Origin: Methylacidiphilum infernorum V4
GTDB taxonomy: Bacteria; Verrucomicrobiota; Verrucomicrobiia; Methylacidiphilales; Methylacidiphilaceae
Assembly: GCF_000019665.1 (NCBI RefSeq)
Contig: NC_010794.1
Span: 558,001-622,000, forward strand
DNA: 64,000 bases
Direction: 5' to 3'
The notes beneath the pieces were generated by a model. The model saw only the letters and a program-made list of their open reading frames with translations. It did no database searches and was not told where the DNA came from. Within the stretch, counting starts at the first letter, position 1, and the number at the start of each line of letters is the position of its first letter. Shown one piece after another: positions 31,899 to 35,832 of the stretch. A program made the translations under genes and the position numbers.

Positions 31899-33314
31899 AT
31901 GGAGAGGGAAGGGGAAGAGGTTCTCAGTGAAATATGCAGCTATGTACTCCGCAACAGGGAATTTAGCCTCAATGCCATTGATAATGCTTATCTTTGCTTT
32001 TGGGATTCTCTAGCCTGCCTTTTTCTTGGAGTGAAATCCGCAGAGTGCCGGCTTCGCATGGAACCTTTATTCGATGAGCCTTCGGACAGTTTTAGCTGTC
32101 TTATCCCTGGCAGCACTTTGCGGGCTAATCCGCTGGATGCCGCTTTTGCGATAAGTTGCGGACTGCGCTGGCTCGATTACAATGATGCTTGGCTTGCCCA
32201 GGAATGGGGGCATCCCTCCGATAACCTGGGCGCTATTCTTGCCTGTGCCCAGTATAGGGAAAAGAAGGAAGGGGAGAAGGTAAGCGGGCTCAACATTCTT
32301 CAGTGGATGGTTAAAGCCCACGAGATCCAGGGGGTGCTTTCTTTAAAGAACTCCCTCAATCGGTTTGGACTCGATCACGTTGTTTTTGTACGGGTGGCGT
32401 CGGCAGCCGTAGCCTCGGCGATTCTTGGAGGAGGAGAAAAAGAGGTGATGAGCGCCCTGACGAACAGTTTTGTCGATGGCGCTCCATTAAGGATATACCG
32501 GCATGCCCCGGTGACGGGTTGGAGGAAGTCTTGGGCAGCGGCCGACGCCGTGCGCAGAGCGGTATGGCTTGCTTTTATCGCCAAAAGGGGGGAAATGGCT
32601 TATCCCAACGTGCTGTCGCAGCCCCAATGGGGTTTCCCCGATGCCTTTTTGAGAGGGACCCAAGTTGTTCTCGACAGGCCCCTTTCTGATTATGTCATGG
32701 AAAATGTGCTCTTTAAAGCTTATCCGGCGGAGTATCATGCTCAAAGCGCCATAGAGGCTGCTTTAGCGCTTCGAGAGGAAGTGCTCCCCAAGCTTGAAAA
32801 GATACAGCGCATAGAAATTCATACCCAGTTGCCGGCTATCCGGATTATTCATAAGCAGGGTCCTTTGCATAATCCCGCTGATCGGGATCATTGCCTTGAA
32901 TATATCGTTGCCCTAGCCCTTCTGTTTGGAAAAGTTACCCAAGAACTTTACGAAAACGATGTAGCCGCCGATCCCCGTGTTGATTACCTGAGGAAAAAAA
33001 TGGTTACGGTGGAGGATAAGACTTACACTGCGGCTTATTATGACCCGGAAAAGATGGCCGTCGCCAATGCCGTACAGGTCTTTTTCGATGACGGTTCTTC
33101 AACCGATAAAAAAGAGGTCCTTTTTCCCTTGGGACATCCTCGAAGAAGGGCGGAATTTCAAAAGGTTTTACCCCTGAAGATCGAACATGCCTTAAACGGG
33201 CTTTTTTCCGAAGAAAGGAAAAAAGAGCTCCTTGATCTTTATTCAAAAAAGGAGAAGTTTTTTACCCAAAGTTCCTTGGAGCTGTGTTCTCTTTTTGTAC
33301 CCGACCTCCTGTAG
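31899..33314 (+). CDS. MmgE/PrpD family protein (2-methylcitrate dehydratase-like)
   Basis: 471 aa, the normal length for this family. Recognisable blocks include SCGLRWLDYNDAWLAQEWGH with the DxNDxW and GHPSDN signatures, ILQWMVKAHEIQG, FKAYPAEYHAQSAIEAAL and DHCLEYIVALALLFG. PrpD dehydrates 2-methylcitrate in propionate use; other members include cis-aconitate decarboxylase and iminodisuccinate epimerase. No prpB or prpC gene is near, so the exact reaction is uncertain. Confidence 0.88.
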   Translation: MEREGEEVLSEICSYVLRNREFSLNAIDNAYLCFWDSLACLFLGVKSAECRLRMEPLFDEPSDSFSCLIPGSTLRANPLDAAFAISCGLRWLDYNDAWLAQEWGHPSDNLGAILACAQYREKKEGEKVSGLNILQWMVKAHEIQGVLSLKNSLNRFGLDHVVFVRVASAAVASAILGGGEKEVMSALTNSFVDGAPLRIYRHAPVTGWRKSWAAADAVRRAVWLAFIAKRGEMAYPNVLSQPQWGFPDAFLRGTQVVLDRPLSDYVMENVLFKAYPAEYHAQSAIEAALALREEVLPKLEKIQRIEIHTQLPAIRIIHKQGPLHNPADRDHCLEYIVALALLFGKVTQELYENDVAADPRVDYLRKKMVTVEDKTYTAAYYDPEKMAVANAVQVFFDDGSSTDKKEVLFPLGHPRRRAEFQKVLPLKIEHALNGLFSEERKKELLDLYSKKEKFFTQSSLELCSLFVPDLL

Positions 33315-33808: not shown

Positions 33809-35218
33809 ATGAAATGGACTATTGATCCTACTTTTTATCCCTCGGCACGGATTGCCATGGAATCTCCCCCCGAAAAGCTTGCTTATGTCGTGGCCTTGAA
33901 TCCTTTAGCCCTATCTGGACAAGAAAATGGTCGAGCTCGAGGAGATGTTCTTGCGGTAATCGATCTTGATCCCGAATCAAAAACTTATGGCCAGGTTGTC
34001 AACCGGCTGGAAATGCCTCATCCGGGAGATGAACTGCATCATTTTGGATGGAATGCTTGCAGTAGTTCCCTTTGTCCCCAATCACCCCATCCCCACCTGG
34101 AAAGGAGATACCTTGTCGTTCCCGGATTGAGATCTTCCCGGATCTACATCATCGACACCAAGCCCGATCCCTTCTCCCCGAAGATTGTAAAAATTATTGA
34201 ACCGGAGGTGTTGAAAAAACGCACCGGCTATTCCCGGCCTCATACCGTTCACTGCGGCCCCGAGGGGATCTATGTGAGTGCTTTGGGCAGCGATCAAGGT
34301 GAAGGTCCGGGAGGAATATTCCTTTTGGATCATTTTTCTTTTGATCCCTTGGGTATGTGGGAAATAGATCGAGGTTCGCAGTACTATGCTTATGACTTCT
34401 GGTGGCACATCAACCAAGATATACTCCTTAGCAGTGAATGGGGAACGCCTCCCATGGTGGAAAACGGAGTCGTCGGTTCGCTTTTGATGGAGGGCAAGTA
34501 TGGACACAGGCTCCATTTATGGGATCTGAAAAAACGCCGACACTTGCAGGAGCTTGACCTGGGTGAGGATTACCAAATGGCTCTCGAGGTCAGACCTGCG
34601 CATGACCCCAGGAAATCTTATGGATTTTTAGGAGTCGTCGTATCCCGCAAAGACCTTTCTTCCTCCGTCTGGTTGTGGTTCAAGGATAAGCAAGGTTGGC
34701 AAATCAAAAAAGTCATAGAAATTCCCGCCTTGGATGCAAGCAAGGAACTGCTCCCTCCACTCTTGCAACCATTCGGCAAGGTGCCTCCCTTGGTCACCGA
34801 CATCGACCTTTCGTTGGACGATCGCTACCTTTATGTGTCTTGTTGGGGAACGGGAGAACTACGAAAATACCTGGTAGACGATCCTGGGAATCCCAAGCTT
34901 GTGGGTTGCCTTAAGATCGGAGGCATTGTCTCTGGGTTCCCTCATCCCAAAAACCCGCGGAAAGCCTTAAGCGGAGGCCCTCAAATGGTGGAAGTCAGCC
35001 GCGATGGCAAGAGAATTTATCTGACCAATTCCCTCTACTGGGCATGGGATGAACAATTTTATCCCGGCGGCATCGAGGGCTGGATGGTGAAAATCCATTC
35101 GACTCCAACAAGTTTTGAATTTGAAAAGGATTTCTTTGTCGAGTTTCCCGGACTCAGGGCCCATCAAGTCCGCCTCCAAGGAGGAGATTCCTCCACCGAT
35201 TCTTTCTGTTTCCCATGA
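33809..35218 (+). CDS. mtoX: Methanethiol oxidase (SBP56, selenium-binding-protein family)
   Basis: 469 aa, typical for SBP56. Family landmarks: the start FYPSARIAMESPPEKLAYVV, HPGDELHHFGWNACSSSLC with the conserved Cys pair, PHTVHCGPEGIYVSALG, EWGTPPMVENG, and the late metal-site region ending RAHQVRLQGGDSSTDS. Bacterial members oxidise methanethiol to formaldehyde, hydrogen sulfide and hydrogen peroxide with copper. I see no obvious signal peptide, unlike the periplasmic Hyphomicrobium enzyme. The stop overlaps the next gene start by 4 bp, so the two are translationally coupled. Confidence 0.92.
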   Translation: MKWTIDPTFYPSARIAMESPPEKLAYVVALNPLALSGQENGRARGDVLAVIDLDPESKTYGQVVNRLEMPHPGDELHHFGWNACSSSLCPQSPHPHLERRYLVVPGLRSSRIYIIDTKPDPFSPKIVKIIEPEVLKKRTGYSRPHTVHCGPEGIYVSALGSDQGEGPGGIFLLDHFSFDPLGMWEIDRGSQYYAYDFWWHINQDILLSSEWGTPPMVENGVVGSLLMEGKYGHRLHLWDLKKRRHLQELDLGEDYQMALEVRPAHDPRKSYGFLGVVVSRKDLSSSVWLWFKDKQGWQIKKVIEIPALDASKELLPPLLQPFGKVPPLVTDIDLSLDDRYLYVSCWGTGELRKYLVDDPGNPKLVGCLKIGGIVSGFPHPKNPRKALSGGPQMVEVSRDGKRIYLTNSLYWAWDEQFYPGGIEGWMVKIHSTPTSFEFEKDFFVEFPGLRAHQVRLQGGDSSTDSFCFP

Positions 35219-35832
35219 GTATCGAAGCTTTGAGTTATTACTTGGGATTAGGTTTTTTTCACGGGCTGAACCCTGCCATGGGTTGGCTTTTTGCGGTTGC
35301 CTTGGCTTTGCAACACAATAGCCTGCGTTGGATCGGCAGGGCGGTGATCGCCCTGGGTGTAGGCCATTTTTTGTCCGTCTTTTGTCTTTGCGCCGTCTTC
35401 ATCCTGTTGGGAAGGACACTACCCCAGCTTTGGGTCAAAGGACTCTGTGTATCCGCCCTTTTTGGCTTTGGCGGTTATTGGCTTTTTCGGGCAAGGCATC
35501 CCCGTTGGGTAGGGATGAACGTCGGCCTAGCTGAGCTGGTTGGCTGGTCTTTCCTTATGGCTTCCGCTCATGGAGCAGGGCTGATGCTGGTGGCAGGATC
35601 GTCTCTCTGCGGAAAATCTTTTCTTCCCCTGCCTGTGCAATGGGATTCGTTAAAGCTGTTTTTCTATCCCTCGGTGATCCATTCAATAGGGTATTTTTTT
35701 ACGGTATCCATCCTTGCCACCCTGGTCTTTCGGGCCGATCTTTTAGGCCTATTGTATAGAAAATGGATCAATTTTGATATCCTCTGGGCCATTTCTCTTT
35801 TTTTAGCGGGAATAGGGACGATTTTAGCTTAA
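35215..35832 (+). CDS. Multi-pass membrane protein coupled to mtoX
   Basis: 205 aa with about six membrane helices. Two His-containing motifs stand out: LGFFHGLNPAMGWLFAVALA near the start and SAHGAGLMLVAG in the middle, reminiscent of NicO/HupE-type metal permeases. It overlaps mtoX by 4 bp (ATGA), so a joint role such as metal supply to MtoX or export of a product is likely. The family is not one I can name. The 3' end overlaps the convergent aquaporin gene by 4 bp. Confidence 0.8.
   Translation: MSIEALSYYLGLGFFHGLNPAMGWLFAVALALQHNSLRWIGRAVIALGVGHFLSVFCLCAVFILLGRTLPQLWVKGLCVSALFGFGGYWLFRARHPRWVGMNVGLAELVGWSFLMASAHGAGLMLVAGSSLCGKSFLPLPVQWDSLKLFFYPSVIHSIGYFFTVSILATLVFRADLLGLLYRKWINFDILWAISLFLAGIGTILA

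Follow-up and report, generated by a model that had tools for sequence, protein, structure and literature searches.

A six-helix membrane protein encoded beside one clade of SBP56-family proteins: a candidate for copper delivery to a cytoplasmic thiol oxidase

One clade of the SBP56 family, made up of putative cytoplasmic methanethiol/thiol oxidases, is encoded directly beside a six-helix membrane protein in many bacterial phyla. We call this membrane protein the partner, and we describe the pair from a window of 64,000 nucleotides of Methylacidiphilum infernorum V4 DNA, the whole stretch that was analysed. Our preferred reading, to which we give a probability of about 40%, is that the partner is a copper (metal) importer or loader for the cytoplasmic thiol oxidase, taking the role that SCO1 has for the periplasmic enzyme. 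Published papers are cited throughout from excerpts.

Results

The SBP56-family gene (PF05694) occupies positions 33809–35218 on the forward strand of the window and encodes a protein of 469 amino acids, which belongs to what we term the ‘DPTFYPS’ clade. The gene for the SBP56-associated partner, which has no family model, occupies 35215–35832 on the same strand and encodes 205 amino acids. The layout given in a preliminary description of this DNA was confirmed: both reading frames were found at these coordinates, and they meet in an ATGA (35215–35218, forward strand) that holds the TGA stop of the SBP56 gene and the ATG start of the partner, an overlap that likely reflects translational coupling of the two. 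The aquaporin-like reading frame next to the partner (PF00230, E = 1.2e-32) lies on the minus strand and ends at 35829, giving the convergent 4-bp overlap (35829–35832) that had also been described. A gene of the MmgE/PrpD family is found on the same strand as the pair (31899–33314), ~500 bp upstream of the SBP56 gene. SCO1/SenC and MauG were absent among the direct neighbours of the SBP56 gene, which are the MmgE/PrpD protein, the partner and the aquaporin. The promoter scan gave one promoter-like site, on the opposite strand, versus 3.8 expected, and the terminator scan gave 11 terminator-like sites, mostly within genes, versus 4.9 expected.

Residues 5–467 of the SBP56 protein matched PF05694 strongly (E = 1.7e-181, 604 bits; curated cut-off 34). 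Against the NCBIfam equivalog model for MtoX methanethiol oxidase (NF052453) the protein scored 108 bits, below the cut-off of 650. The preliminary description had named the gene mtoX; membership of the SBP56 family stands, but the protein is not close to characterised MtoX and falls in a separate clade. All six copper-site residues of human SELENBP1 (H73, H74, H137, H140, D189 and E252; PMC10362175) have counterparts here, the equivalence being drawn from motif and spacing with the human sequence itself outside the alignment. H77-H78 (34037–34042, forward strand, as are all features below) match H73-H74; 136 of the 138 clade rows have both, and the remaining two have gaps there; H145-x-x-H148 (34241–34252) match the HXXH motif formed by H137 and H140 (138/138 each). 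D196 (34394–34396) and E260 (34586–34588), likewise in 138/138 rows, were matched to D189 and E252 by position only. Every clade row with a letter at these places kept all six residues, and L216, a SELENBP1-like row, had the same spacing (H74-H75, H137/H140, D189, E253). We regard the protein as a putative copper-dependent thiol oxidase, which would bind copper at this site.

Three cysteines are given for ‘cluster 1’ methanethiol oxidases (MTOs), in the motifs GWNAC, HTVHC and GGDC (excerpt of PMC10936201). Those of GWNAC (C84) and HTVHC (C149) are present in the SBP56 protein of this locus, and GGDS replaces GGDC. The longer motif GWNACS is common to this protein and to the cluster 1 MTOs as the excerpt presents them (PMC10936201).

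Export signals were judged by a crude hydropathy test of the N-terminus in place of a signal-peptide predictor. When the matched N-terminus was used, a hydrophobic stretch was found in 0 of 138 rows of this locus's clade versus 5 of 7 periplasmic-type rows. Because trimming to the matched part could hide a signal, the test was redone with up to 40 extra upstream residues; no hydrophobic N-terminus appeared in 139 clade rows, and only 2 of the 7 periplasmic-type rows were now positive, as the tested stretch shifts. For the verrucomicrobial strain SolV, in which methanethiol activity was reported in cells and extract, SignalP predicted the SBP56 enzyme to be cytoplasmic (excerpt of PMC9003020). 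Thus, the clade of this locus is putatively cytoplasmic, with no visible export signal.

The partner had been described as a six-helix protein with two HG-rich motifs, FFHGLNPAMGW and SAHGAGLML. Both motifs were found in its sequence, and an AlphaFold2 model (pLDDT 85.9, pTM 0.82) had six membrane helices; helices 1 and 4 are interrupted, in each case at one of the two motifs. The model of a second homologue, L069 (pLDDT 85.5), agreed in both the number of helices and the interruptions. Conservation was scored in 140 distinct partners outside the DUF899-linked branch described below, with matches under 150 residues left out; three of the 140 (L054, L071, L182) have no intact SBP56 gene upstream. 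In the helix-1 break motif H16-G-L-N-P-A-M22-G-W24 (35260–35286), residues H16, G17, P20, M22, G23 and W24 were present in 140/140 sequences, as was H51 in helix 2 (35365–35367). The helix-4 break motif H119-G-A-G-L-M124 (35569–35586) had H119 in 140/140 and M124 in 139/140, and H156 in helix 5 (35680–35682) was kept in 139/140, the remaining row having a gap. This gives a set of four His and two Met that are invariant or nearly so and lie in membrane helices or at their breaks. Further residues at 140/140 were G50, W111, G120 and A121, and no Cys occurred among the residues conserved in at least 93% of the 140 sequences.

The loop between helices 3 and 4, predicted to be cytoplasmic, holds H95 (136/140) and M101 (98% of 81 rows), the stretch from one to the other being encoded at 35497–35517. 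Mean numbers of K+R were 2.1, 4.1 and 2.7 in loops 1-2, 3-4 and 5-6, and 0.4 and 0.3 in loops 2-3 and 4-5; loop 3-4 averaged 4.06 K+R and 0.01 D+E. By the positive-inside rule, loops 1-2, 3-4 and 5-6 should be cytoplasmic and the N-terminus outside. An HG...M motif breaks one helix in each half of the partner, and the two halves are predicted to lie in opposite orientations. An internal 3+3 sequence repeat was rejected, hhalign of the two halves being not significant (probability 0.3).

No Pfam or NCBIfam family matched the partner at E up to 1. When 38 homologues were compared with Pfam at E up to 1, a scan in which HMMER filters remove most matches above 0.1, the matches were weak and scattered, with none common to more than four members; the best was DUF308, a short repeat of unknown function (E = 0.00065, one member). 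CcdA/DsbD, RnfA/NqrE, Nramp/LeuT and NicO-like families were not among these matches. We rejected a phage gene, as the partner had no match in phage records and a single PHROGs match at E = 0.39. SCO1/SenC, a copper chaperone, is a thioredoxin-fold domain with a CxxxC motif. The partner, with its six membrane helices and no conserved Cys, has neither feature, which upholds the earlier view that it is not SCO1/SenC or MauG.

The partner's profile found nothing among PDB sequences at E up to 10, and in Foldseek neither the partner model nor the L069 model had a match at E 0.001 or better, the best values being 0.26 and 0.20, respectively. The Foldseek lead for the partner model was CcdA (5vkv, E 0.26, probability 0.63), and the VIA-align lead was RnfA (8ahx_A, Z 7.4, 138 aligned, rmsd 4.5). 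For the L069 model, VIA-align placed 9a52_A (titled YCSG-FABL) first (Z 7.7, 193 aligned, rmsd 5.4), followed by CodB (Z 7.4, 178 aligned, rmsd 5.7); DMT1 (Z 6.4, 189 aligned, rmsd 5.7) was another of its matches. Because the Z values fall in VIA-align's common range, we claim no fold for the partner; the leading families also differ between the two models.

We surveyed the linkage from the partner's side with a profile search over one genome per species, which gave at least 513 encoded relatives, and we kept the best 80. An SBP56 gene lay directly upstream on the same strand in 78 of these best 80 homologues. An exact 4-nt overlap is possible in 40 of the 78 pairs, taking the possible partner start nearest the SBP56 stop where several exist; 58 pairs overlap or lie no more than 30 nt apart, and 20 are spaced more widely, up to 286 nt. 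On these counts chance overlap was rejected. The same order, strand and close spacing occurred in records labelled Verrucomicrobia, Poribacteria, Acidobacteria, Proteobacteria, Chloroflexi, Actinomycetes, Deinococcus, Gemmatimonadota, Armatimonadetes and Nannocystis, and the occurrence across many phyla likewise dismisses a quirk of methanotrophs. An all-against-all comparison of neighbours over the best 80 partner loci revealed no third conserved gene. No outer neighbour was present in more than 14 of these loci, and the recurring ones came from Poribacteria or soil Verrucomicrobia, plus one Thermoflexus.

Plasmid records gave 58 partner matches, and in 16 of the 18 plasmid regions inspected SBP56 was directly upstream. 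Agrobacterium plasmid L182 has SBP56 residues 370–469 only, behind an insertion sequence (an ISL3 element), and the remaining inspected region, from Variovorax, has DUF899 instead of SBP56. At L054 a 69-residue SBP56 end lies directly upstream of the partner, beside a transposon-type reading frame (named by eye). The genome of L071 has no SBP56 by family search and a transposon-type reading frame upstream of the partner; further upstream, a stretch of 23 residues resembles the start of SBP56 (E = 8e-4) and may be a trace of it. At these three loci, where SBP56 is shortened or missing near transposon-type frames or ISL3, the partner frame stays open. On plasmid pMaD9 of Marinovum algicola (L186, 1–3624), a DMSP demethylase gene, an alcohol dehydrogenase, SBP56 and the partner are consecutive.

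Genome samples gave the same picture from the enzyme's side. Among 13 Methylacidiphilaceae genomes the partner was found in 11 and SBP56 in 13; in the two without a partner, the sole SBP56 was divergent and of the periplasmic type (E about 1e-43). The partner (strong matches) and SBP56 occurred in the same 6 of 194 Verrucomicrobiota genomes. In 349 Pseudomonadota genomes clade SBP56 was present in 25, with the partner adjoining in 25/25, and 2 further genomes had the partner beside DUF899. Both genes were present and adjacent in 7 of 199 Acidobacteriota genomes; 14 of the 21 with any SBP56 match had divergent forms and were left out of the clade count. Among 198 Actinomycetota genomes, 7 had the adjacent pair, G880 had remnants of both genes, and 4 had clade SBP56 without a partner (intact in G971, with an internal stop in G824, in pieces in G795 and G810), so that the partner adjoined clade SBP56 in only 7 of 11. 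Over the 940 genomes of the four phyla the partner was found in 48 (45 beside clade SBP56, 1 with remnants of both genes, 2 beside DUF899) and clade SBP56 in 49, with the partner adjacent in 45 and the four exceptions all Actinomycetota; four sample-centre genomes (G000, G229, G230, G231) had been picked for having the pair, and their relatives are not independent. We discarded five weak partner matches, each from a different genome of a single genus (E about 3e-4, covering half the profile), one of which lies in a long membrane protein of another kind and the others in frames of similar length, and a weak match with internal stops in G022 (E 0.0035). A stretch of about 7 kb in one genome (G555:C7:42487-48935) holds both the SBP56-partner pair and a SELENBP1-like SBP56.

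A quick tree of 55 SBP56 rows separated the periplasmic MtoX-like proteins, the SELENBP1-like proteins and the group of this locus, the place of three long outlier rows being unsure. Partners were confined to the group of this locus (44 rows, 39 with and 5 without), and the partner label required 5 changes on the tree versus 14.1 in shuffles, with 0 of 500 shuffles as low. The rows without a partner were L023, L228, L232, L199 and L200. Row L023 is at a contig end and its partner sits on another contig; L199 and L200, two of the divergent Acidobacteriota forms left out of the clade count, are placed on long branches inside the clade. The full set, obtained with five SBP56 queries after removal of 8 rows on length or score and merging of identical cores, comprised 160 rows: 138 of this locus's group, 12 SELENBP1-like, 7 periplasmic-type and 3 outliers set aside. 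The partner was absent from the about 1.3–1.5 kb downstream of all 12 SELENBP1-like and all 7 periplasmic-type rows. The idea that the partner belongs to mtoX loci in general was therefore rejected, as it accompanied a single SBP56 clade. The preliminary description had held that absence of the partner from other mtoX loci would count against its proposal, and such absence applies to these other SBP56 types and not to the clade of this locus, in which the partner is the rule. In two SELENBP1-like loci of Pseudomonadota (L123, L126) the SBP56 gene is followed by a ferredoxin-like and a CoA-binding-like reading frame (named by eye), possibly a different accessory set.

Lastly, five partner relatives (L177, L178, L189, L242, L243; two genomes and three Variovorax plasmids, two of these plasmid records having been found using a DUF899-linked relative as query) sit directly downstream of a DUF899 gene with a GCPSC motif and not of SBP56. 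The DUF899 neighbour had a weak, peroxiredoxin-like match to AhpC-TSA (E 0.037 and 0.068, below cut-off). All five relatives have T, S or N at the position of M22, and H95 is missing in the three that were aligned. On this basis we conclude that M22 and H95 go with SBP56.

Discussion

A soluble SBP56 protein with a full copper site, nearly always linked to a partner whose invariant metal-binding side chains within the membrane are His and Met, points to metal handling. Since periplasmic MtoX has SCO1 in the same place, we favour copper import or loading. In the proposed mechanism, the first gene would supply a soluble, cytoplasmic, copper-dependent SBP56 thiol oxidase (putative methanethiol oxidase), and the second an inner-membrane protein of six helices that carries copper, most likely as Cu(I). 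The copper path would be lined by His16, Met22, His51, His119, Met124 and His156, at or near the two broken helices, and the conserved cytoplasmic face of the partner (His95, Met101 and a WxNxD loop) would hand copper to SBP56. We infer copper as the ligand, the direction of transport and this hand-over. Both the invariant set of His and Met and the copper-site residues of the cytoplasmic protein are consistent with copper delivery. Some broken-helix membrane proteins bind a metal or redox centre at the breaks, which for the partner is only an analogy. That copper supply can limit a cytosolic SBP56 protein is suggested by human SELENBP1 made in E. coli, which was treated with copper during purification, and by the worm MTO, which lost about 90% of its activity with a copper chelator (excerpt of PMC10362175).

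Several observations speak against copper delivery. We found no homology to a known copper transporter and no convincing fold match. SELENBP1-like bacterial SBP56 proteins have the same copper residues and no visible export signal, and do without the partner. The four actinobacterial genomes also have clade SBP56 without it, the gene being intact in G971, and so do L199 and L200, which lie inside the clade in the quick tree. Relatives of the partner adjoin DUF899, for which we know of no copper link. Finally, two cluster 1 MTOs of Rhodobacteraceae, which may belong to the clade considered here, showed activity when expressed on their own in E. coli (excerpt of PMC10936201).

The preliminary description had also suggested that the partner could move a reaction product. 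We judge this unlikely, together with the wider reading to which it belongs, in which the partner transports sulfur compounds, either exporting the SBP56 product (sulfane sulfur, persulfide or sulfide) or importing a non-volatile thiol, with the break motifs as the substrate site. Methanethiol and H2S pass membranes unaided; in our judgement, intramembrane His and Met without conserved Cys would be unusual for a sulfur carrier, and none of the 38 homologues matched a Pfam sulfur transporter family at E up to 1. Nevertheless, the Rhodobacteraceae MTOs were reported to yield sulfane sulfur, which may need removal (excerpt of PMC10936201), the Marinovum algicola pair comes after a DMSP demethylase gene, and DUF899, the other neighbour, has its sub-threshold peroxiredoxin-like match. 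An equally low probability goes to a membrane redox component, with a metal or heme between the broken helices, which would couple the oxidation of thiols by SBP56 to the quinone pool or the periplasm. Proteins of the CcdA and RnfA types are parts of membrane electron-transfer systems and carry electrons. They were the first structure matches of the partner model, and both of the partner's neighbours, SBP56 and DUF899, are plausibly tied to thiol chemistry; but these matches fall in the tool's common range and neither heads the lists for the L069 model, and the partner has no conserved Cys. Furthermore, characterised MTO enzymes use O2 themselves (excerpt of PMC10936201), and all of SolV's ability to degrade methanethiol was found in the soluble fraction (excerpt of PMC9003020).

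The soluble activity of SolV (PMC9003020, in the part cited) bears equally on an improbable third reading, in which the partner transports nothing and, as an anchor or assembly factor, keeps SBP56 at the inner face of the membrane. The strong linkage and the overlap would suit such a protein, as would conserved, positively charged cytoplasmic loops, but an anchor does not need invariant His and Met at broken membrane helices. The pair could in principle be linked without a joint function, as two genes co-carried by horizontal transfer, and the many plasmid records together with the lack of widely recurring outer neighbours would agree with this. We consider it highly improbable, as order, strand and close spacing are kept across many phyla and no third gene travels with the pair.

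Copper delivery remains our preferred reading, and the small invariant set of His and Met makes the copper question testable. Bacteria are believed to exclude copper from their cytoplasm; if correct, copper delivery by the partner would amount to a private copper supply line for one cytoplasmic enzyme, and the DUF899-linked branch, in which one of the two Met is lost, would serve another metal or cargo. A rather doubtful extension is that the partner would establish a new family of copper importers or insertases in bacteria, every member of which is dedicated and translationally coupled to one cytoplasmic copper enzyme. Whatever its function, the partner represents a widespread membrane family that has neither a Pfam nor an NCBIfam model, and, as a marker in the gene context, it distinguishes this SBP56 clade from its SELENBP1-like and periplasmic counterparts, all within one Pfam family. 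Methanethiol oxidation joins the carbon and sulfur cycles, and the gene order on the Marinovum plasmid ties the clade to DMSP-derived methanethiol. In titles and abstracts of the open literature (subscription papers and preprints being outside this scope) we found no description of the partner or of its pairing with SBP56, and the open literature gave nothing on copper acquisition by cytoplasmic forms of bacterial methanethiol oxidase.

Among known systems, CcdA/DsbD, RnfA/NqrE and Nramp-type proteins have functional residues at membrane helix breaks. The partner is like them in having helices interrupted in the membrane; its structure matches to such proteins are weak, no sequence relation was detected, and it has no conserved Cys. 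On the enzyme's side, the only clear relative with a solved structure is SBP56 of Sulfolobus tokodaii (PDB 2ECE; 637 bits over residues 5–469, nearly the whole length), which has been termed a non-matured protein without copper (excerpt of PMC5739008). Human SELENBP1 and C. elegans SEMO-1 (excerpt of PMC10362175) resemble the enzyme of this locus in having no bacterial export signal and the same four copper-site His, with the Asp and Glu matched by position; the 12 SELENBP1-like bacterial rows differ from this locus in having no such partner beside them. The closest parallel in gene order is the mtoX-SCO1/senC-mauG operon of Hyphomicrobium sp. VS and Ruegeria pomeroyi, whose enzyme has a signal peptide (excerpt of PMC5739008). 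In that operon, as here, the gene of an SBP56 copper thiol oxidase precedes one with a probable role in maturing the enzyme; there an exported enzyme is accompanied by SCO1/SenC and MauG, whereas here an enzyme with no signal is accompanied by a six-helix membrane protein.
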